From contig JAAVDF010000010.1 in NCBI GenBank assembly GCA_014801945.1, forward strand, positions 18,541-74,089: a stretch of DNA of 55,549 nt. Reading direction: 5' to 3'. Positions 18,329 to 33,575 of the stretch are shown piece by piece. A program made the translations under genes and the position numbers. Every line of letters begins with the position of its first letter. Positions within the stretch are counted from its first letter, which is position 1. The notes under the pieces were generated by a model. That model searched no databases. It saw only the letters and a list, made by a program, of their open reading frames with translations, and was not told the DNA's origin. The DNA comes from Bacteroides sp. (GTDB taxonomy: Bacteria > Bacteroidota > Bacteroidia > Bacteroidales > Muribaculaceae).

Positions 18329-18633
18329 GAGTTAAACCATGACATCCCCAATATAATACACACTTTTTAACGAAAAAATTTGACTAAAAGTCAGATTATT
18401 TGGTCTAAAATACATGTAGAATAATAGGCGAAAATTGTAGATTAAACTCTTTAATAGCTATAATTCAGAAGGATATGATTGCAGCATACTGTCCATTTTA
18501 CGGTATCTGTAAGCGATCCAGCCGGATGCTTCTTAAATATACACGTATGCAAAATAATAAACAGTCTGTATAATTTGTAAAATCAATGAATTTCAGCTAT
18601 ATTTGTAACATAAATCACATAATCTTCCGCCAC

Positions 18634-19512
18634 ATGAACTCTGCCTCTGCTACATTTATCAATCCACTGACTGACTTTGGTTTCAAATACCTTTTCGGTC
18701 AGGAGGAGCATAAACAATTTTTATTGTCGTTTCTCAACTCACTTATGACCGGTCAGCGTGTCATCACGGATGTGGAGTTTGTTGACAAGGAACGTATAAA
18801 TGAAGATAAGGATGGTCGTGCATTGATCTATGATCTGCACTGTAAGACGGCAGATGGTCATAAAATAATTGTCGAGATGCAGAACCGCTATCAGACATAT
18901 TTTCGTGACAGGGCAATATTCTACATGTCAGGTGATATCTATCATCAGGGACGCAGAGGTTCGGAGTGGAACTATTGTCTAACACCGGTTTATGGAGTTT
19001 TCATGATGAACTTCGATTGGCATGAAGGACAAGAGGAACCATTGCGTGAAGATGTTTGTTTGATGAATGAGTGTACACATGAAGTTTTCTCGGATAAAAT
19101 GAGGATGACATTCCTGAAGATTCCGATGATGGATAAGAATGCCGACGATTGCCGTGACACTTTTGATAGATGGTTGTATTTGCTAAAACACATGGATAAG
19201 ATGGAGGTGATGCCTAAAGTATTTATGAATGATCCGGTATTTCGCCGGTTAGGGGAAGTGGCAAAAGTTGCTGCTTTAACAGATAATGAACGGGAGGCTT
19301 ATGATAAGTCTCTTAAAGTCTATCGTGACAGCTATGCTATCGCCGAGACAGAACGTGCTGAGGGCCGGGAAGAGGGTCGTGCGGAAGGTCGTGCGGAAGG
19401 TCGTGCGGAAGAAAAGCTATCAAATGCCCGTAATCTGAAGAAATTAGGGATTCCGATAGACATTATTGCGAAAGGGGTAGGTCTGTCTGAATCTGAAATC
19501 GCGTCCTTGTAA
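18634..19512 (+). CDS. Rpn family / PD-(D/E)XK nuclease-family transposase protein
   Basis: NPLTDFGFKYLFGQEEHKQFLLSFLNSLM, YDLHCKTADGHKIIVEMQNRYQTYFRDRAIFYMS and EGRAEGRAEGRAEEK C-terminus; ATG at 18634 preferred to 18586. Confidence 0.92.
   Translation: MNSASATFINPLTDFGFKYLFGQEEHKQFLLSFLNSLMTGQRVITDVEFVDKERINEDKDGRALIYDLHCKTADGHKIIVEMQNRYQTYFRDRAIFYMSGDIYHQGRRGSEWNYCLTPVYGVFMMNFDWHEGQEEPLREDVCLMNECTHEVFSDKMRMTFLKIPMMDKNADDCRDTFDRWLYLLKHMDKMEVMPKVFMNDPVFRRLGEVAKVAALTDNEREAYDKSLKVYRDSYAIAETERAEGREEGRAEGRAEGRAEEKLSNARNLKKLGIPIDIIAKGVGLSESEIASL
19375..19410 (+). repeat. Tandem repeat, 3 x 12 bp (GGTCGTGCGGAA) inside the Rpn gene
   Basis: Three exact copies read directly; encodes (GRAE)n in frame. 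Confidence 0.95.
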
Positions 19513-22298: not shown

Positions 22299-24596
22299 AT
22301 GATCTTGAGAATGTACAGATTGATTCTGATCCTTATCCTTATAGTGGGGAATAGTTCGGAATGGATGCGGATATCTGCGACCGTAAAATCTTTTTCGACA
22401 GCTGATGGAATGTCGCATGACCGGATCGTGGGTCTATGTCAGGATGACAGGGGTGTGGTATGGATCTGTACGTGGTATGGGATTGATCGTTACGACGGCT
22501 ATGGATTCAAATCCTTCCATCCTCAGGGTAAGCAGGATACCTATAGTCGTTTTAAGAAAGCTTTTTTTCGTAATGACAGTATATTCGTCAGTACTGTAAA
22601 CGGTCGGAATCTTGTGTTTTCACTTGCTTCGCTCACATACGGGACTTATGACGGCCCAGTGCCGGACAAAAATCAGCGTTGCAGCGTTAATCTCATTGAC
22701 AGTGATGGAAATGAATGGGACGCTACATACGAAGGAGTGACACTTACTAAACGCGTGTCTGATAATTATCATCTGCTGACAAATCCGGCCTATCCTTTCG
22801 TACGTGCTCTTTACGAGGATTCACAGGGTAGGCTGTGGGTGGCATGGTGCGGTAATCCGGATGCCGGAATGTCGGATGGAGAAGTTATTGTATATGACTC
22901 CAATGGACATCCTACAGGATTGAAATTTGAGGGGAAGGTGGTATATTCTATCAATGAAGACAAGGATCATAATGTGTGGCTTGGGACGCGTCAGAATGGC
23001 CTCTCGATTTTGAGGCCTTCGGGTGGAAATGAGTTTACGGTGTATGATTATTATCACGATGATAACCCCAATTCTTTATCATGCAATAGAATATTTGATA
23101 TTTTGCAGGATTCATACGGACGGATATGGATTGCGACGCTTGGAGGAGGTGTCAATTTAGTTGAAAAAGGCTATGATGTCGCGGATCTCTCGTTTTCCGT
23201 GCCGGAAGAGTACCCGTTGGCAACCAATCCACGAGTGCGGTCCATTGAGGAATGTGAGGGGCTACTACTCATAGCTACTGATAACGGGCTTATCAAGACC
23301 AAGCTAAAATCCATGGGAGATAATCACAGATGGATTTTTCAACCGGTAACAATGGAAGTTGATGCGGATGGACCGGCAGAGGAACTCATACATATAATAA
23401 AAACGGAGAGAGGGAAAATCCTGATTTCCTCTTTCGGGAGGGGGATATGGGAGTATCAGATTGATAAATCGGCTTTCCGTCACGTGGCTGCTGATGACAT
23501 CGCTTACAAACAACCTGTATTTTCTGCTCTTCCGCAAGGCAGGGACTCGCTGTGGGTTGTTTCCCGCAGTAATCTGCTGCTGTATGATAAAAGCGGGAAG
23601 AATTTTATCACTCCGGTTAATCATGCCTATACAATGATTGAGACGAAACCGCTGAAAGACAGCAGTGGACGGAACTGGTTTGCAACAAATGACGGGCTAC
23701 TTTGTATTGAAAATCCTCTGGAAACCCCACGGATCGATGAAGGTTGTAGCCCTGTAGTTATATTTACGGAATTAGTACATGACCAAACAGAATCGTCCCG
23801 AAGTCTATCCTACACCGATTCCATAGTAACCATCATTCCGTCTCAACGAAATTCAACGCTTCTGTTCTCGTCACTTGATTACGGAAATTCCGACAGGATC
23901 AGATATTACTGGAGGATTGCTGAAAAAGATACAACATGGAGGGAGACGAGTCACGGACATTCATTATCCTTGGGAGAGATTCCACCGGGAAAATGGACGA
24001 TGGAAATCAGATCGACCGATGCGTCTGGACAATTACTTGATAATTCCGGCCGATTGCATCTTGATTTCGAGGCTTATTGGTATGAAAGGCAGGCTGTCAG
24101 GGTGGCAATTTATGCATTGATCGGTCTTTTTGTCCTTTTTGTCCTATGGCTTCTCATTAAATACCGACGGTTGCAGACCATATACTCCAAGCTTCTCGAT
24201 AGTCAGCCGGTCGCAGTGGTGAGTGCCGCTATGACGGAGATCAAGGATACGGAAGAATTGACCGATGCCGATAGAGAATTCATTGATACGATAAACATGA
24301 AACTCGAAAGTGGGCTTAGTGACACAGATTTTTCCATTGATGATCTTGTAGGATCATTAGGGATGAGTCGTTCGGTATTCTACAGGAAACTTAAATCCAT
24401 AGTGGGGCAATCACCTTCGGAGTACATAAATCAGTATCGCCTTCAAAGAGCAGCGGCAATGTTGCGTGCAGACGATAGTAAGGCCATATCGACGGTTGCG
24501 TATGAATGTGGCTTTTCTTCTCCCCAATATTTCAGCAACCTTTTCCGTAAACGTTATCAGATGACACCCAATGAGTGGAGAAAAAATGGACGATGA
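22299..24596 (+). CDS. Membrane-anchored regulator: beta-propeller sensor, Y_Y_Y-like domain, TM, AraC-type HTH; no histidine kinase or receiver domain
   Basis: Repeated propeller motifs (DDRGVVWICTWYGIDRYDGYGF; DSQGRLWVAW; DKDHNVWLGT; DSYGRIWIATLGGGVNL), TM VRVAIYALIGLFVLFVLWLLIKY, then directly SIDDLVGSLGMSRSVFYRKLKSIVGQSPSEYINQYRLQRA...ECGFSSPQYFSNLFRKRYQMTPNEWR. Confidence 0.9.
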   Translation: MILRMYRLILILILIVGNSSEWMRISATVKSFSTADGMSHDRIVGLCQDDRGVVWICTWYGIDRYDGYGFKSFHPQGKQDTYSRFKKAFFRNDSIFVSTVNGRNLVFSLASLTYGTYDGPVPDKNQRCSVNLIDSDGNEWDATYEGVTLTKRVSDNYHLLTNPAYPFVRALYEDSQGRLWVAWCGNPDAGMSDGEVIVYDSNGHPTGLKFEGKVVYSINEDKDHNVWLGTRQNGLSILRPSGGNEFTVYDYYHDDNPNSLSCNRIFDILQDSYGRIWIATLGGGVNLVEKGYDVADLSFSVPEEYPLATNPRVRSIEECEGLLLIATDNGLIKTKLKSMGDNHRWIFQPVTMEVDADGPAEELIHIIKTERGKILISSFGRGIWEYQIDKSAFRHVAADDIAYKQPVFSALPQGRDSLWVVSRSNLLLYDKSGKNFITPVNHAYTMIETKPLKDSSGRNWFATNDGLLCIENPLETPRIDEGCSPVVIFTELVHDQTESSRSLSYTDSIVTIIPSQRNSTLLFSSLDYGNSDRIRYYWRIAEKDTTWRETSHGHSLSLGEIPPGKWTMEIRSTDASGQLLDNSGRLHLDFEAYWYERQAVRVAIYALIGLFVLFVLWLLIKYRRLQTIYSKLLDSQPVAVVSAAMTEIKDTEELTDADREFIDTINMKLESGLSDTDFSIDDLVGSLGMSRSVFYRKLKSIVGQSPSEYINQYRLQRAAAMLRADDSKAISTVAYECGFSSPQYFSNLFRKRYQMTPNEWRKNGR

Positions 24597-24651
24597 CCTG
24601 ATTTTACACTTATAAGAATAGCATTTACAATTCTAAGAGTATGTTAATCTG

Positions 24652-24659
24652 TAATTTTG
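24652..24659 (+). promoter_or_regulatory. Candidate -7 box TAATTTTG before the first DUF1593 gene
   Basis: Exact TAnnTTTG 33 bp upstream of the ATG; no good -33 at standard spacing. Confidence 0.4.
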
Positions 24660-24691: not shown

Positions 24692-26140
24692 ATGAGGTTA
24701 AAATCATTATTAATTCTTGTCTTTGGAACCATCAGTTCCAATTACTCGTTGTCCTTGGCTGCTGAGGCACAAAATGAGCTTCCGCGTGTGATAGTCCTGA
24801 CAGATGCGGAGACGGATGACCGTTGTTCGATGGTTCATTTCCTACTTCATTCAAATGACATGCAGGTGGATGGTATAGTCCAGACAAACTCATGCTTTCA
24901 GCGTAAAGGCTGGAGTCACGAGCCGTGGCTTAAGGAGATGATCGATGCTTACTCAAAAGTATATCCCAACCTTAAAGTTCATGATCCTTCATATCCGACA
25001 CCGGAATATCTGTTGTCGCGTGTATATGTCGGCGATGAGGATCCTGATCATATCATGCTTGGAGGCGGAGCATGCAAGCAGTTGCTACCCGGTGCTGAGC
25101 CGATAATAGATCCTTCACAATGGCCGGATACGCCCGGATCTGACCGTATAGTCGAAGTGCTTCTGGAGGATGATCCGCGACCTGTCTTTATCCAGTGCTG
25201 GGGCGGAGGTAACACTGCAGCGAAAGCATTCGATAAGCTTAAAGAGAAATATCCGGCTGATTATGACCGTGCGATACGCAAGGCGGTTCTTTATTGTATA
25301 TGGTATCAGGATGCTGCCGGTTCGTACATAGAAAAGTATCATCCGTCGGCAACAATATTGCTTAACCATCATTTCAGCGGGAGCTGGGATTACGGGACAA
25401 TGACAAATTCGACAGAGTTTGTGGATAAGTATATGCATAATGGGAAGAATCCTCTTGGCGATCTATATACCCAGCCTTACATAAGCGAGGGTGATACACC
25501 TGCTTTCCTTTATTCTCTTGATAATGGTCTGCGTTCCTATGAGCATCCTACCTTCGGAGGATGGGGTGGACGTTTCTATAAGGTCAAAGGAACAGAAAAT
25601 GTGTATCGTGATACCGGATTCGGGGAATTACGCGAATGGATTGAGCCTGCGATGCATGATTTTCAGGCCAGATTGGAATGGTGTGTCACCCCTGAATACG
25701 CCAAGGCCAATCATAAACCGGAAATTAGTGTCCCGATGGGCCTTGACCACACCGTATGTAGCGGTGACACCGTAAGGTTGAAAGCCGATATTAACGATCC
25801 GGATCAGTTTGATGTCGAGGCTACATGGAAATTGCGTGGCGACATGTGGTCGCAGAAAGGAATCACGAAGGAATTTGTCGCAGCCAATCCTGACCGATTC
25901 CATACTCCTTGGCGGTGTGCGTGGTATCAATATCCTTCAGGTTCTTACAAGGACTACGTCGATCTGCAAATAGGATCCGAAAGGAAAGCCGATATGTGGT
26001 TTGTAGCACCTGAAGTGGATGAGCCGCAGACAATACATATTGTTTTGGAAGCATACGATATGTCCGTGCCACGTCTGACATCCTACGCACGCTATATAGT
26101 CACTGTTGAGCCACGTAAGGCATCCACTGTATCAAAATAA
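24692..26140 (+). CDS. Secreted DUF1593 / nucleoside-hydrolase-like protein (Sde182 family), copy 1
   Basis: Signal peptide; PRVIVLTDAETDDRCSMVHFLLHSNDMQVDGIVQ; shared layout with the next gene. Confidence 0.87.
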   Translation: MRLKSLLILVFGTISSNYSLSLAAEAQNELPRVIVLTDAETDDRCSMVHFLLHSNDMQVDGIVQTNSCFQRKGWSHEPWLKEMIDAYSKVYPNLKVHDPSYPTPEYLLSRVYVGDEDPDHIMLGGGACKQLLPGAEPIIDPSQWPDTPGSDRIVEVLLEDDPRPVFIQCWGGGNTAAKAFDKLKEKYPADYDRAIRKAVLYCIWYQDAAGSYIEKYHPSATILLNHHFSGSWDYGTMTNSTEFVDKYMHNGKNPLGDLYTQPYISEGDTPAFLYSLDNGLRSYEHPTFGGWGGRFYKVKGTENVYRDTGFGELREWIEPAMHDFQARLEWCVTPEYAKANHKPEISVPMGLDHTVCSGDTVRLKADINDPDQFDVEATWKLRGDMWSQKGITKEFVAANPDRFHTPWRCAWYQYPSGSYKDYVDLQIGSERKADMWFVAPEVDEPQTIHIVLEAYDMSVPRLTSYARYIVTVEPRKASTVSK

Positions 26141-26150
26141 TATTCAGGTC

Positions 26151-27503
26151 ATGAAATGTTTATCTCTACTATTGTTTGCTGTGGTGCTGTCTGCTTGCAT
26201 GCGTATGGAAGCGCGTGACGCGACCGTTACCGAAAGACCGCGTATTCTCGTAAGCACTGACATAGGTGGTACTGATCCTGACGATAATCAGTCCATGATC
26301 CATCTGCTGATGTATGCCAATGAATTTGATATCGAGGGTCTCGTTTCCTCCCCATCTTTCGGTGAAGGTTCGAAAGAGGAAATATTTCGTATGATATCGC
26401 TTTACGAACAGGACCGTCCATCGCTCGTCAAAGGGCTTAGGAACAGCTTCGGCGACAGTCACGGGACATATCCGTCTCCTGAATATTTGACTTCAATCGT
26501 GAAACAAGGTCATAAAGGGAGTGCCCCGTTGTGTGGCTATGATGGATCGACCGAGGGTTCGGAATGGATAGTGAAATGTGCGCGCCGCGCCGATCAGCGT
26601 CCGCTGTGGATTCTTGTATGGGGTGCGCTTGAGGATGTCGCACAGGCTCTCCATGATGCTCCGGATATTTCCGAGAAGATCCGTATCTACTGGATAGGTG
26701 GTCCGAATAAGAAGTGGGGTTGCAATGCCTATAATTACATAGTTGAGAATTTTCCTTCGCTATGGTTCATAGAAAACAATGCCACTTATCGCGGATTTAT
26801 CGGCTCAACTTCGGATACATCAATCTATCAAAAAGGATTTTGGCCGACATTTATGGAACACGCCGGTGTGATGGGTAACGATTTCGTGAATTATTATGGA
26901 GGTATAGTAAAGATGGGCGATACACCCTCGCTGCTCTATCTGATGAAGGGAGATCCGGAGCGACCATCGTCTGATCATTGGGGCGGCCGTTTTGAAGTCA
27001 TGAATTATACGCCGCGTTATATCATTACCGGACCCTTATCTGCTTCGGACACTGTCCCATGTTATTCTCTCCTTGAGTGGCGGCTCAATGGACCGCAGAT
27101 TGAGCTTGCGCCAGACTCAGTGTGCTTTTCACTGACAATAGACCGGCAGAATTGGCCCGGATACTACGCCGGAGACGGAATTTATGTGGTCAGATACGCA
27201 CCGAAAGCACCTGCTACACTTGACTATACGGTGAATTCTAATATTGTAGGTTTCCCGATTCATGAAGGCACGTTTACCGTTGGTAAGAAATGGCCGGCCA
27301 TTGGAGATTACAGTCCCGGTAATCCTAATATTGTTGCAAATCACATCCCGTTGGGAAAAGTAGATGAGGATGGCAGGTATATGTCAACATGGTTCACCGA
27401 TATTCAGGACTATTCCTCCGCTTGGCAAGGTAGTTCCACTATATCCGGATGCCGGAATGATATCATGAAAGATTGGAGCTTACGTTTTCAATGGCTAAAA
27501 TGA
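26151..27503 (+). CDS. Secreted DUF1593 / nucleoside-hydrolase-like protein, copy 2
   Basis: ATG at 26151 precedes a lipoprotein-like signal (MKCLSLLLFAVVLSAC); PRILVSTDIGGTDPDDNQSMIHLLMYANEFDIEGLV. Confidence 0.87.
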   Translation: MKCLSLLLFAVVLSACMRMEARDATVTERPRILVSTDIGGTDPDDNQSMIHLLMYANEFDIEGLVSSPSFGEGSKEEIFRMISLYEQDRPSLVKGLRNSFGDSHGTYPSPEYLTSIVKQGHKGSAPLCGYDGSTEGSEWIVKCARRADQRPLWILVWGALEDVAQALHDAPDISEKIRIYWIGGPNKKWGCNAYNYIVENFPSLWFIENNATYRGFIGSTSDTSIYQKGFWPTFMEHAGVMGNDFVNYYGGIVKMGDTPSLLYLMKGDPERPSSDHWGGRFEVMNYTPRYIITGPLSASDTVPCYSLLEWRLNGPQIELAPDSVCFSLTIDRQNWPGYYAGDGIYVVRYAPKAPATLDYTVNSNIVGFPIHEGTFTVGKKWPAIGDYSPGNPNIVANHIPLGKVDEDGRYMSTWFTDIQDYSSAWQGSSTISGCRNDIMKDWSLRFQWLK

Positions 27504-27725: not shown

Positions 27726-28550
27726 ATGAATAATCATGAATTAACTAAACAGGCAGAAATCAACCGTAAGAGACTGCTTGAAATTGTTTACAGTGCGAAA
27801 GCCGGGCACATTGGAGGCGACCTTTCATGCCTCAACATGCTCACTGCGTTATATTTCGACATTCTTAACGTTGATCCGGCCAATTCGGAAGATCCTGACC
27901 GCGACCGATTCATCCTCAGCAAGGGTCACTGTGTCGAGGCTCTTTACGTGACTCTTGAAGCCAAGGGTTACTATGGACGCGAACTGACGGATACTCTCGG
28001 AAAATTCGGTTCGATCCTTTCGGGGCATCCCACTATCGAAGTCCCCGGTATCGAGGTCTCGTCCGGTGCTCTCGGACATGGTCTGTCCATCGGTGTGGGA
28101 ATGGCCATCGCGGCCAAGAAGGACGGAAAGAGTTACAAGACATACGTCCTTATGGGTGATGGCGAACAGGGTGAAGGCTCTATCTACGAGGCAGCTATGG
28201 CCGGAAATCAATATAAACTCGACAATCTTGTGGCCATAATCGACCGCAACCATCTTCAGATCAGCGGTAACACCGAAGATGTGATGGCTTTGGAGGATAT
28301 CACCGCCCGTTGGTCGGCCTTCGGTTGGGACGTAAAGACTGTCAACGGTGACGACATCTGTGCTATTGTCGAAACACTGAAGGGTATCGATTTCAATAAC
28401 GGTAAGCCCCATCTCATTATTTCAGAAACCACCAAAGGCAAGGGTGTGTCGTTCATGGAGAATGTGGCCAAATGGCATCATGGAGTTCCCAATGAGGAGC
28501 AGTATGCCACAGCCATCAATGAGATCGAATGTCGAATCAACGAACTTTAA
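27726..28550 (+). CDS. Transketolase, N-terminal (TPP-binding) subunit
   Basis: AGHIGGDLSCLNMLTALYF, RDRFILSKGH, MGDGEQGEGSIYEAAMAGNQYKLDNLVAIIDRN. Confidence 0.93.
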   Translation: MNNHELTKQAEINRKRLLEIVYSAKAGHIGGDLSCLNMLTALYFDILNVDPANSEDPDRDRFILSKGHCVEALYVTLEAKGYYGRELTDTLGKFGSILSGHPTIEVPGIEVSSGALGHGLSIGVGMAIAAKKDGKSYKTYVLMGDGEQGEGSIYEAAMAGNQYKLDNLVAIIDRNHLQISGNTEDVMALEDITARWSAFGWDVKTVNGDDICAIVETLKGIDFNNGKPHLIISETTKGKGVSFMENVAKWHHGVPNEEQYATAINEIECRINEL

Positions 28551-28556
28551 TGAATT

Positions 28557-29483
28557 ATGAAAGCCTGTAGAAAAGCGTTTACAGAAACTTTGCTTGAACT
28601 CGCACGCAAAGATAAAGATATTATCGCGGTGACCACCGATGCCCGCGGATCAGTTACTCTCGGTGATTTTGCCAAGGAACTTCCTGACCAGTTTGTCGAA
28701 TGCGGTATTGCCGAGCAGAATGCCGTCGGTATCTCAGCCGGACTTGCCATGTGCGGCAAGAAAGCATACGTCTGCGGTCCTGCCTGCTTCTATGTTGCGC
28801 GCAGTCTTGAGCAGGTCAAGGTCGATGTGGCCTATAATCGCACCAACGTCAAGATTCTCGGTGTCAGCGGCGGTGTCGCTTACGGTGCGCTCGGTGCTAC
28901 TCACCATAGCCTCCACGACATTGCAGCTCTCCGTACCTTCCCCGGCATGAACGTCGTGCTTCCGTGTGATGCACGCCAGACCCGCCGACTCGTGGAGATG
29001 CTCGTCAACCGTCCCGAACCGGTCTATGTGCGTGTCGGTCGTGCGGATGTGCCTGACGTATATGAGAACGATGATTTCAGCTTTGAGTTCGGCAAGGCCA
29101 ATATGCTCCTCGACGGTACAGACCTTACTATCATCGCAACAGGTGAGACCGTCTATCATGCCTATCATGCCGGTCTGCGCCTGCGTGAACAAGGTATAAA
29201 TGCCCGTGTGCTCGATATGGCTTTCGTCAAACCTCTCGACACTGAAGCAGTGCTCAAAGCCGCAGCCGAAACAGGAAAAATAATCACCGTTGAGGAACAC
29301 AGCCGTTACGGCGGTCTCGGAGGTGCAGTCGTGGAAACGATCGCTGAAAATCCTGTGCCGGTTAAGATCATAGGTATTCCTGACGAAGATGTGATCCACG
29401 GTAATTCCAAAGAGATTTTCGCTCACTATGGCATGGATGCCGATGGCATTGTCAGGACAGCATTGGAATTTCTCAAGAACTGA
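28557..29483 (+). CDS. Transketolase, C-terminal (pyrimidine-binding) subunit
   Basis: FVECGIAEQNAVGISAGLAMCGKKAYV; VYVRVGRADVPDVY; TVEEHSRYGGLGGAVVE. Confidence 0.93.
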   Translation: MKACRKAFTETLLELARKDKDIIAVTTDARGSVTLGDFAKELPDQFVECGIAEQNAVGISAGLAMCGKKAYVCGPACFYVARSLEQVKVDVAYNRTNVKILGVSGGVAYGALGATHHSLHDIAALRTFPGMNVVLPCDARQTRRLVEMLVNRPEPVYVRVGRADVPDVYENDDFSFEFGKANMLLDGTDLTIIATGETVYHAYHAGLRLREQGINARVLDMAFVKPLDTEAVLKAAAETGKIITVEEHSRYGGLGGAVVETIAENPVPVKIIGIPDEDVIHGNSKEIFAHYGMDADGIVRTALEFLKN

Positions 29484-29536
29484 CACTCCGGAGCAGTCAT
29501 GGCGAATGCTTAACAATAAATACCTTACAATATATC

Positions 29537-31021
29537 ATGAAACATAAAATTATAGCGATTGACCAGAGTACGTCGGCCACGAAAGCGATGCTTTTTTCAG
29601 ACGAATGCAAGTTACTCGACCGACTCAACATAGAGCACCACCAATATTATCCCCGCCACGGATGGGTGGAGCATGATCCGACCGAGATCTACGATAATAC
29701 CGTCAAGGCCATTACCATGCTCATGGAATCAGTCGGTAAGGAAGATGACTGCGAATATTCGCTTGCCATAACCAACCAGCGCGAGACGGTCGTGGTGTGG
29801 AACCGTGTGACAGGCGAGCCGGTACATAATGCCGTCGTGTGGCAGTGTCAGCGCGGAGCGGAGTTGTGCAATCAACTCAAAAAAGCCGGTCACGAGCCTG
29901 TAGTGAGAGCCAAGAGTGGTCTGATGATCGATCCTTATTTCTCAGCTACGGGTGTGAAATGGATTCTTGATAATGTCGATGGAGCGGCTGAACTCGCCGC
30001 CAAGGGTGACCTGCTCATGGGGACTATCGAGTCATGGCTTATATGGAAACTCACCGGAGGCAAGACCCACGCCTGTGACTACACGAATGCATCGCGTACA
30101 CTGCTTTTCAATATCCACACGCTCAACTGGGACAGTGAACTGCTTGATATTTTCGGCATACCTGCCTCGATGCTTCCCGAAGCCAAACCATCGGACTCCG
30201 TGTTCGGTGAGACGACAATCGAAGGGCTCTTCGACAGTCCTATCCCTATCGCGGGTGCGATCGGTGACTCCCACGGAGCCTTGGTAGGGCAGATGTGTTT
30301 TAAATCCGGTATGGGTAAGGCTACTTATGGCACGGGATCTTCCGTGATGGTCAATATCGGTACGGATGCACTCAATCCGCCAGCCGGACTTGTCACTTCC
30401 ATCGGTTTTGCCGCACTCGGTAAGGTCCACTATGCTTTCGAGGGCAACATCCACTGCACGGGAGCTACTATCAAATGGCTTACCGATAAACTTGAACTGA
30501 TCAATTCACCCTCTGAGGTAGAGCGGTTTGCCCTTAGCGTTCCCGACACCGGAGGCGTGTATTTCGTGCCGGCTTTTGCCGGTCTCGGTGCTCCTTGGTG
30601 GAATTCGGAAGCCAAGGCAGCGATTGTCGGCATGACGCTTGCCACCGGCAAGGGACATGTCTGTCGTGCAGCTCTCGATGCCATAGCCTACCAGATCAAG
30701 GATCTGGTGGATACCATGACCTCAGGCAATGATGTCAGCCTCTCGGAACTGCGCGTGGATGGTGGACCGACCAAGAATAACTATCTCATGCAGTTTCAGG
30801 CCGATATGCTCGGTGTGGCGGTGAACCGTGCCGATATCGAGGAAGCCTCGGCTTACGGAGCTGTGCTTATGAACTGTCTGGCCCGCGGCGTATGGACCTC
30901 TCTCGATGAGGTAGCCGCTCTGCGCACGCACAATGATCTGATCATACCCGCTTCAGAAGCTGAAAAGAATGCAGCCCTTTATGCCGGATGGTGCAAGGCT
31001 GTCAAGCTCATCAATCAGTAA
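29537..31021 (+). CDS. FGGY-family carbohydrate kinase
   Basis: IAIDQSTSATKAMLF, AITNQRETVVVWNRVTGEPVHNAVVWQCQRG, GDSHGALVGQ, VDGGPTKNNYLMQFQADMLGV. Confidence 0.94.
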   Translation: MKHKIIAIDQSTSATKAMLFSDECKLLDRLNIEHHQYYPRHGWVEHDPTEIYDNTVKAITMLMESVGKEDDCEYSLAITNQRETVVVWNRVTGEPVHNAVVWQCQRGAELCNQLKKAGHEPVVRAKSGLMIDPYFSATGVKWILDNVDGAAELAAKGDLLMGTIESWLIWKLTGGKTHACDYTNASRTLLFNIHTLNWDSELLDIFGIPASMLPEAKPSDSVFGETTIEGLFDSPIPIAGAIGDSHGALVGQMCFKSGMGKATYGTGSSVMVNIGTDALNPPAGLVTSIGFAALGKVHYAFEGNIHCTGATIKWLTDKLELINSPSEVERFALSVPDTGGVYFVPAFAGLGAPWWNSEAKAAIVGMTLATGKGHVCRAALDAIAYQIKDLVDTMTSGNDVSLSELRVDGGPTKNNYLMQFQADMLGVAVNRADIEEASAYGAVLMNCLARGVWTSLDEVAALRTHNDLIIPASEAEKNAALYAGWCKAVKLINQ

Positions 31022-31092
31022 GCCGGTTCGTTCAGACAGAAACAAAGAATTTCTTATCTTATTATTTAATAACCAAACAAAAAACTGTTGCA

Positions 31093-32523
31093 ATGAAAAA
31101 AGATGCAATCAACGGTAAAGAGACTTTCGGTGTCATCATCGGAACTCGTGCCTATTTTAACTCTGACCTCGCAATTGATGTCCGCAAGACCCTTCTTTCA
31201 GATCTCGAAAAGGCCGGTTACGGCTATGTGATCCTTGATCCGTCCGACACTCCTACCGACGGCTCTATGGAAACTCTTGAGGACGGTAAGAAATGCGCCG
31301 AACTCTTCCGCAAATATCGTGACGAGATCGACGGTATCATCGTATCGCTCCCCAACTTCGGTTTTGAAATCGGTATCATCAACGCTATCAGCCGCGCTGA
31401 TCTCAATGTCCCTGTGCTCGTTCAGGCTTGCGACGATGAGAATGACAAGGTGGATCTCGACAGCCGTCGTGATGCCTTCTGCGGTAAGATTTCGGTGTGC
31501 AACAACCTCTACCAGTACGGTATTCCTTTCACCGATACAACTCTCCACACATATTCTATCCATAGCCCGCTGCTCATGCAGGACATCAACCGTTTCGCCG
31601 CTATCTGCCGCGTGGTCAAGAAGCTCACTCACTGCCGTATCGGTCAGATCGGTACCCGTCCTCTCGGCTTCAACACCTGCCGTTTCAGCGAGAAGCTCCT
31701 TCAGGCAAGCGGTATCACGGTAGTGCCCGTGGATCTCAGCGAGATTCTTGAAAACGCACGCCGTATTTCCGACGATGATCCCCGTCTCGCCGAGAAGATG
31801 GCTGCTATTTCGTCATACGCCACTGTTCCGGAGAATTACCGCGAGAAACTTCCCCTTCAGGCCAAGTTCGGCCTCGCTGTCGAGGACTGGATCAAGGCCA
31901 ACGAGATCGATGCATGTGCCATCCAGTGCTGGGACTCTCTCGAACAGAACTACGGTTGCGCAGCCTGCGTGACAATGAGTATGCTCAGCGACAAGCTTCT
32001 TCCCTGCGCATGTGAGACTGACGTTGCCGGTGCGGTGTCCATGTATGCCCTCTCACTCGCTGCCAAGGAAGCCTCTACGCTTCTTGACTGGAACAATAAC
32101 TTTGCCGAGGATCGCAACTGCTGCGTATGTACACACTGCGGTAATGCACCCAAGAGCTTCATGAAGGATGATCTCAAGCTCGGTCCTCTCGGTGTGCTCG
32201 GACGTACACTCGGTAAGATCAACACCTTCGGTGCCGTATATGGCAAGGCTGCTCCCGGCGACTTCACTTTCTTCCGCATTTCGACTGACGATACCCTCGG
32301 TGAGATCAAGGCATATCTCGGCAAGGGTGAGATCACAGCCGATCCCTACGGAATGGATGGCTGCATCGCCGTTACGAAGGTCGATAACCTCCAGCCCCTC
32401 ATGAAGTTCATCTGCAAGAACGGTTTCGAGCACCATGTAGCGATGGTGAGAACCGACGTTGTCGATATCCTGAAGGAAGCCATCGAGACTTATCTCGGCT
32501 GGAATCTCTATGTGCATGAATAA
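31093..32523 (+). CDS. L-fucose/L-arabinose isomerase-like sugar isomerase
   Basis: Fucose-isomerase-like layout (FGVIIGTRAYFN..., IGQIGTRPLGFNT, ACETDVAGAVSMYAL, CTHCGNAPKSF); ATG 31093 preferred over 30988, which overlaps the kinase. Confidence 0.87.
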   Translation: MKKDAINGKETFGVIIGTRAYFNSDLAIDVRKTLLSDLEKAGYGYVILDPSDTPTDGSMETLEDGKKCAELFRKYRDEIDGIIVSLPNFGFEIGIINAISRADLNVPVLVQACDDENDKVDLDSRRDAFCGKISVCNNLYQYGIPFTDTTLHTYSIHSPLLMQDINRFAAICRVVKKLTHCRIGQIGTRPLGFNTCRFSEKLLQASGITVVPVDLSEILENARRISDDDPRLAEKMAAISSYATVPENYREKLPLQAKFGLAVEDWIKANEIDACAIQCWDSLEQNYGCAACVTMSMLSDKLLPCACETDVAGAVSMYALSLAAKEASTLLDWNNNFAEDRNCCVCTHCGNAPKSFMKDDLKLGPLGVLGRTLGKINTFGAVYGKAAPGDFTFFRISTDDTLGEIKAYLGKGEITADPYGMDGCIAVTKVDNLQPLMKFICKNGFEHHVAMVRTDVVDILKEAIETYLGWNLYVHE

Positions 32524-32552
32524 GTCCCGACATCTTCAATACGACTTGTCAA

Positions 32553-33575
32553 ATGGTACTTGTTCATAACTATGTCCTCGCCATCATCTGCTGCTGCATC
32601 TGCTGCATCTGCTGGGGCTCGTGGGCCAATACCCAGAAGCTTGTTTCCACTCCCAAGTGGAGCTTCGAGCTTTATTACTGGGACTTCACGATCGGTGTCT
32701 TTCTGACGGCCGCTCTCGCAGCCCTGACTCTCGGCAGCATGGGGCCGGCGGACGACGGACGAAACTTCCTGAACGATCTCGCTAACCTTGACTGGAGCAG
32801 TGCGGGATGTGCGATGCTCGGCGGAGCGGTGTGGAATTTTGCCAATATCTTCCTGACCGCTGCCATTGCTATCGCCGGTATGTCTGTCGGTTTCCCCATC
32901 GGCGGAGGTCTCGGCTGGATCGGCGGCATCATCTTCAACTACCTTCTGGTCATCATTGCCGGACAGGCTTATCCGGGCAATCAAGGCCTGCTGTGGACCG
33001 GCGTTGCCATCATAATCATAGCCATCTATCTGTGTGCCAAGGCTTACGGTAACCTATCAACCGTCCGTAAGCAGACTCCTACCAAGGGTATAGTCCTCGC
33101 CGTAATTTCCGGTATCGGCCTTGTGTTCTTCTACGGTCTCGTGGTCAAGTCGCTTGATCCCATGTATGTCAGCGGAGGCACAGGCTCTCTTACCCCTTAC
33201 ACCGGAGTGTTCTTCTTCGCTCTCGGTGTGCTCATCACCACTCCTATTTTCAATACCTTCGTCATGCGTCACCCCTTCGAGGGCAGCAAGACTTCCTTCA
33301 AGGATTACCTTGCCGGCAGTTCACGCACACACCTCATCGGTATCCTTGGCGGATTCATCTGGATGGGCGGTATGGTGATCAGCTTCATGGGTACGAGCGC
33401 GGCCAATCCTGCCATTTCCTACGCGCTCAGCAACGCCGCGCCTATCGTGGCCATGATATGGGGTGTCTGGGTATGGAAGGAGTTCAAGGGTGCGCCCAAA
33501 GGCACTTATCCACTCATCGCAGCCATGTTCCTGCTCTTTATTGCAGGTCTTGTCCTCATCACTCTTTCAAACTGA
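32553..33575 (+). CDS. DMT-superfamily permease, RhaT/GRP sugar-transporter-like
   Basis: About ten hydrophobic helices; CWGSWANTQKL N-terminal, GFPIGGGLGWIGGIIFNYLL, C-terminal GVWVWKEFKGAPKGTYPLIAAMFLLFIAGLVLI. Confidence 0.87.
   Translation: MVLVHNYVLAIICCCICCICWGSWANTQKLVSTPKWSFELYYWDFTIGVFLTAALAALTLGSMGPADDGRNFLNDLANLDWSSAGCAMLGGAVWNFANIFLTAAIAIAGMSVGFPIGGGLGWIGGIIFNYLLVIIAGQAYPGNQGLLWTGVAIIIIAIYLCAKAYGNLSTVRKQTPTKGIVLAVISGIGLVFFYGLVVKSLDPMYVSGGTGSLTPYTGVFFFALGVLITTPIFNTFVMRHPFEGSKTSFKDYLAGSSRTHLIGILGGFIWMGGMVISFMGTSAANPAISYALSNAAPIVAMIWGVWVWKEFKGAPKGTYPLIAAMFLLFIAGLVLITLSN

Follow-up and report, generated by a model that had tools for sequence, protein, structure and literature searches.

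The window is the whole stretch of DNA analyzed (55,549 nucleotides), and the genes and sites described below between 22299 and 33575 lie on its plus strand. A single open reading frame, from the ATG at 22299 to a stop codon ending at 24596, encodes a 765-aa protein, exactly as an earlier sequence-only reading had placed it. From the ORF, Pfam matches and an AF2 model, the whole gene (22299..24596) specifies a kinase-less regulator with Reg_prop, Y_Y_Y, transmembrane (TM) and AraC parts. It is followed, after a gap of 95 bp, by two genes that are its predicted targets: one encodes a Sde182 nucleoside-hydrolase-like protein with a Sde0182_C domain (24692..26140), and the other a Sde182_NH-like protein with a DUF5060 domain (26154..27503). 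A split transketolase, an FGGY kinase, a fucose-isomerase-like protein and a sugar/ureide permease (27726..33575) are possible further targets. A gene for an Rpn family recombination-promoting nuclease/putative transposase (18586-19512) lies a few kb upstream of the regulator.

The regulator starts with a hydrophobic helix (residues 1-24, 22299..22370; hydropathy and AF2 model), a signal peptide or an anchor. The periplasmic beta-propeller region that follows (residues 25-480, 22371..23738; Pfam, AF2 model and Foldseek) matches Reg_prop in four stretches (E 2e-20) and, by our own reading of the AF2 strand list, consists of about 10 four-stranded sheets. A Y_Y_Y beta domain (residues 487-590, 23757..24068; Pfam match at 527-579, E 2e-6, and AF2 model) leads to a TM helix that runs on into the cytoplasm (residues 598-633, 24090..24197; AF2 model and hydropathy), whose core (602-620) is the single strongly hydrophobic internal segment of the protein. 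A juxtamembrane linker of low model confidence (residues 634-655, 24198..24263; AF2 model and ortholog alignment) then precedes an AraC-type DNA-binding domain (DBD; residues 677-763, 24327..24587; Pfam and ortholog alignment), which is matched by HTH_18 (residues 686-762, E 3e-22) and HTH_AraC (E 6e-23). Reg_prop, Y_Y_Y and both AraC models each exceed the Pfam cut-offs, and no HisKA, HATPase_c or Response_reg match was found in this protein at E<=1, in agreement with the domain content that the sequence-only reading had proposed to check by HMM scan. From the end of the TM segment (~625) to the start of HTH_18 (686) there are ~60 residues, the linker length estimated earlier. A receiver (REC) domain takes ~110 aa, so that there is no room for it or for an ATPase domain. 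With neither kinase nor receiver, the protein cannot carry out phosphotransfer within itself, and we infer that it signals without phosphotransfer.

The AF2 model (monomer, 13-row alignment, mean pLDDT 80, pTM 0.55) places propeller strands at 25-470, the beta domain at 487-590 and a continuous helix at 598-633; confidence is low at 635-652, and helices follow at 656-763. Foldseek matches it best to the sensor domains of three hybrid two-component systems (HTCSs), BT3049, BT4663 and BT4673. A PDB title labels BT4673 a 'putative one component system', so that the idea is not wholly new to the field. The Y_Y_Y match starts at residue 527, vs. 658 in a 905-aa kinase-less paralog and 710 in an HTCS of the same genome; the sensor is therefore shorter than in two-propeller relatives, as had been noticed from the letters. 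The Pfam matches, the predicted TM segment and the AF2 model all agree with the earlier proposal of a membrane-tethered DNA-binding protein without its own phosphorelay.

A GTDB pattern scan, through which alone it surfaced, yielded a sole true ortholog in an uncultured Prevotellaceae MAG (locus L034, 761 aa); searches of 27 genomes of the genus and 398 of the phylum turned up no close ortholog. The two proteins are 48% identical across residues 31-762 and have the same domain order, and the L034 regulator, too, has the Sde182 pair behind it (84 and 66% identical to the window copies). A degenerate kinase or REC region, looked for as evidence against the proposed architecture, was not found, and this closest relative is also kinase-less rather than a full HTCS, the outcome that speaks against a deletion artefact. 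The HTH is the most conserved region (72% identity), and the propeller (46%) and Y_Y_Y (39%) regions are less so. The differing fractions at codon positions 1, 2 and 3 are 0.44, 0.31 and 0.64. The shared architecture and context, the regional identities and the third-position bias argue that the gene is maintained. The linker (residues 634-655, 24198-24263, the SKLLDSQPVAVVSAAMTEIK region) is predicted to be disordered, yet it is 64% identical to that of L034, vs. 48% for the whole protein.

The 95 bp that separate the regulator from the first Sde182 gene contain an 18-nt direct repeat. Its half-sites, TTTACACTTATAAGAATA (24603..24620; repeat search and shuffles) and TTTACAATTCTAAGAGTA (24624..24641; repeat search, shuffles and comparison with L034), match at 15 of 18 positions with a spacing of exactly 21 bp. 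Of 3000 dinucleotide shuffles, one gave a repeat this good at a spacing of 20-22, a value that somewhat overstates the significance since several gaps were searched. Without mismatch, the half-site motif has no further occurrence in the window. Just downstream lies TAATTTTG (24652..24659; motif match), which fits the Bacteroidetes -7 consensus TAnnTTTG (PMC7366714). Predicted HTCS operators are direct repeats with a mean tandem-site distance of 21 bp (PMC3878776). At L034, TACTTTTG occupies the position corresponding to TAATTTTG, and the core of the promoter-proximal half-site (TTTACA-TT) and the -7 box are kept, as far from each other as in the window; the upstream half-site is weak and poorly conserved. 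L075, a locus from another family, encodes a kinase-less regulator of the same group; the gap between this regulator and a downstream GDSL-family gene (L075:6752-6909) holds a repeat of different sequence, 13/16 with a 21-bp spacing, and also a TAATTTTG box. No 21-bp repeat stood out at the L071, L076 and L028 loci. From these sequence comparisons we infer that the repeat at 24603-24641 is a putative operator of the window regulator. The gap before the transketolase genes has neither a half-site pair nor a TAnnTTTG box, and extension of the operator to these genes was dropped.

The block at 27726-33575 is a candidate D-apiose-type catabolic block. Its first three proteins, the split transketolase and the FGGY kinase, share 42, 36 and 40% identity with AptA, AptB and AplK, respectively, from the D-apiose cluster of E. 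coli SE15. Behind the L034 regulator, the transketolase block is missing. The FGGY kinase passes the GlpK cut-off, and E. coli AplK falls just below it; the gene product could be a glycerol kinase instead of an AplK-type enzyme. The SftI/sulfoquinovose pathway was ruled out (the isomerase scores 115 vs. a cut-off of 700). Strong matches to the first Sde182 protein were confined to 4 of 394 Bacteroidales genomes, which rules out the Sde182 pair as a universal companion of kinase-less regulators. In genome G639, a kinase-less regulator is divergent from an operon carrying Sde182 genes. At L071:2414-17296, the operon opposite a divergent kinase-less regulator encodes a pectate lyase and two Sde182 proteins, one of them fused to GH88. 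The Sde182 gene of L073 lies near an alpha-L-rhamnosidase; no relative of the window regulator was found near the Sde182 gene in L073 or L074. By its gene content, the L071 operon points to a possible role of Sde182 proteins in pectin use. Apiose is a pectin constituent. Given Sde182 genes beside pectin genes elsewhere and an Apt-like block downstream, a pectic, maybe apiose-bearing ligand is a fair guess, and we tentatively suggest that the regulator senses a pectin-derived oligosaccharide, possibly one that bears apiose.

Among the glycan-sensing regulators of gut Bacteroides, HTCSs form a major class. The genome of origin, a draft assembly (79% complete, 42 contigs) of a gut-type Bacteroidales bacterium, encodes four Y_Y_Y proteins. 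Two are full HTCSs, in frames of 1366 and 1376 aa, and the other two (765 and 928 aa) are kinase-less. The second kinase-less regulator (905 aa, L028:8468-11182, G000 contig C23) is divergent from a SusC/SusD-like pair, so called from gene size and order, and about ten genus members have relatives in its size class. Kinase-less frames in the 27 genus genomes fall into size classes of 734, 860-927 and 1066-1159 aa. A search of other Bacteroidales, suggested with the first description of the gene, found contiguous Y_Y_Y-TM-linker-HTH proteins in at least 23 of 394 genomes and 16 families (profile matched end-to-end, frames <=1100 aa). This is our own count of the matches listed, with the best candidates per genome scored; three or four of the 23 are short frames that lie at the end of a contig, which hides their upstream part, and the profile, built from kinase-less sequences, is biased toward such proteins. 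The window protein fits this group (one frame, contiguous Y_Y_Y-TM-linker-HTH, no relay). Recurrence in the genus and in Bacteroidales rules out a unique architecture, which is less unusual than the sequence-only reading had rated it. Our literature search, which covered open-access papers, found no description of kinase-less Reg_prop/AraC proteins as a class; these sensor-regulators appear to be a widespread, little-described class.

A tree of the Y_Y_Y-TM plus HTH columns (46 kinase-less and 31 HTCS sequences) places the window protein and its ortholog within an all-kinase-less set of 22 that spans at least six families and has an SH-aLRT of 95, and the remaining kinase-less proteins are interspersed among HTCSs. 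The tree requires 10 changes of state, although the starred branches force only two. This scatter and the number of state changes suggest that the kinase-less form likely arose more than once.

These data favor a reading that we consider probable: the window protein would be a one-component, membrane-tethered activator made of HTCS parts that docks on the 21-bp repeat at the Sde182 promoter. A periplasmic propeller/Y_Y_Y dimer (dimerization is assumed) would bind a saccharide. Much as in the scissor-like model put forward for BT4663, the C-termini of the Y_Y_Y domains would then move and pass this motion on to the one TM helix and the stretch that continues it into the cytoplasm. The two AraC domains, repositioned, would dock on the direct repeat with its 21-bp spacing and activate the adjacent Sde182 promoter; of this last step, the repeat and the promoter box are seen in the sequence.

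In HTCSs, DNA binding is normally held off without signal by an inhibitory REC-DBD contact, made by S/CHIP on the REC side and by D and K on the DBD side (PMC11253607). The REC side of this contact set is missing from the window protein, as REC is absent, and the DBD residues have counterparts in D658 and K697 (assigned by their 39-residue spacing and position), which, kept though REC is gone, may serve another role. K is replaced in 13 of 46 kinase-less proteins vs. 0 of 32 HTCSs (Fisher p 5e-4, shared ancestry uncorrected), and L034 has R at this position; D is not significantly relaxed among the kinase-less proteins. A broader proposal, which we advance tentatively, is that a widespread class of relay-free HTCS derivatives, evolved several times, transmits sugar binding mechanically to tethered AraC dimers by way of one TM helix, and that the juxtamembrane linker holds a new off-switch in place of the REC clamp.

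Other readings start from the same features. A ligand might trigger a cut in the juxtamembrane linker that frees the AraC domain to diffuse to DNA. The linker, predicted disordered and yet more conserved than the sensor, would suit such a cut, and a DBD on a tether may reach DNA poorly; however, neither a protease gene nor a cleavage motif was seen, the linkers of other kinase-less proteins differ, and linker conservation could equally mean a dimer or docking contact, so that proteolytic release seems unlikely. The absence of the REC clamp would also allow DNA binding without any signal, by a ligand-relieved repressor or a constitutive regulator. HTCSs with departures from the REC-DBD motif may bind unphosphorylated, and one of them, BT2391, represses its PUL (PMC11253607); the repeat, however, lies upstream of the -7 box, the usual position for an activator, rather than over it, and we give this reading little weight. 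The DBD counterparts D658 and K697, spaced 39 residues apart like the REC-contacting residues (PMC11253607), and the two full HTCSs of the genome would let a full HTCS or an orphan receiver clamp the window protein in trans, by heterodimerization or by REC docking on the DBD, but no kinase or receiver gene is adjacent and K is relaxed as described above, making control in trans improbable. A functionless remnant of a degraded HTCS or an assembly deletion is very improbable despite the draft assembly, given the intact frame, the third-position bias, the recurrent group and the L034 ortholog, whose identical architecture and downstream pair rule out an assembly deletion as the cause of the missing domains.

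Under the preferred reading of a tethered one-component activator, the window protein appears to activate genes directly across the membrane and to do without the kinase-receiver relay of its relatives. The HTCS kinase, receiver and REC clamp are viewed as fundamental (PMC11253607), and the class described here appears to be an HTCS variant without phosphorelay and without REC clamp. With the same sensor and output and nothing between, it offers a test of whether the propeller/Y_Y_Y signal acts mechanically on the DBD. Searches that demand kinase and receiver domains undercount glycan sensors; in this genome (79% complete), they would miss two of the four Y_Y_Y regulators.

The window protein resembles the HTCSs BT4663, BT3049 and BT4673 in its Reg_prop propeller and Y_Y_Y sensor, single TM helix and AraC output, consistent with the Foldseek matches; the direct repeat at its locus, a putative operator, has the HTCS-like spacing of 21 bp. 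It differs in that HisKA, HATPase_c and REC are absent and the sensor region is ~130-180 aa shorter, and it is not an HTCS, because the two defining features (HisKA plus HATPase_c, and a receiver) are both lacking. In the HTCS BT4236, Q replaces the phosphoacceptor His and phosphorylation-independent signaling has been proposed (PMC11253607). Phosphorylation-independent signaling would be common to both, but BT4236 is an HTCS, whereas the window protein is without kinase and receiver altogether. One-component regulators of the ToxR/CadC type are membrane-tethered and pass periplasmic sensing directly to a cytoplasmic DBD; the direct signaling from periplasm to tethered DBD would be alike, but their domains are unrelated and in the opposite order, with an N-terminal winged helix. 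SusR, a membrane protein with a periplasmic sensor and a cytoplasmic DNA-binding domain, is a precedent (PMC3878776). Its family (BT3705, BT3091) shares with the window protein a predicted layout of periplasmic sensor, TM segment and cytoplasmic DBD with no relay; compared by layout alone, the window protein differs in its HTCS-type Reg_prop/Y_Y_Y sensor and AraC output. As modeled here, it is a protein that would work like SusR, built from HTCS parts.
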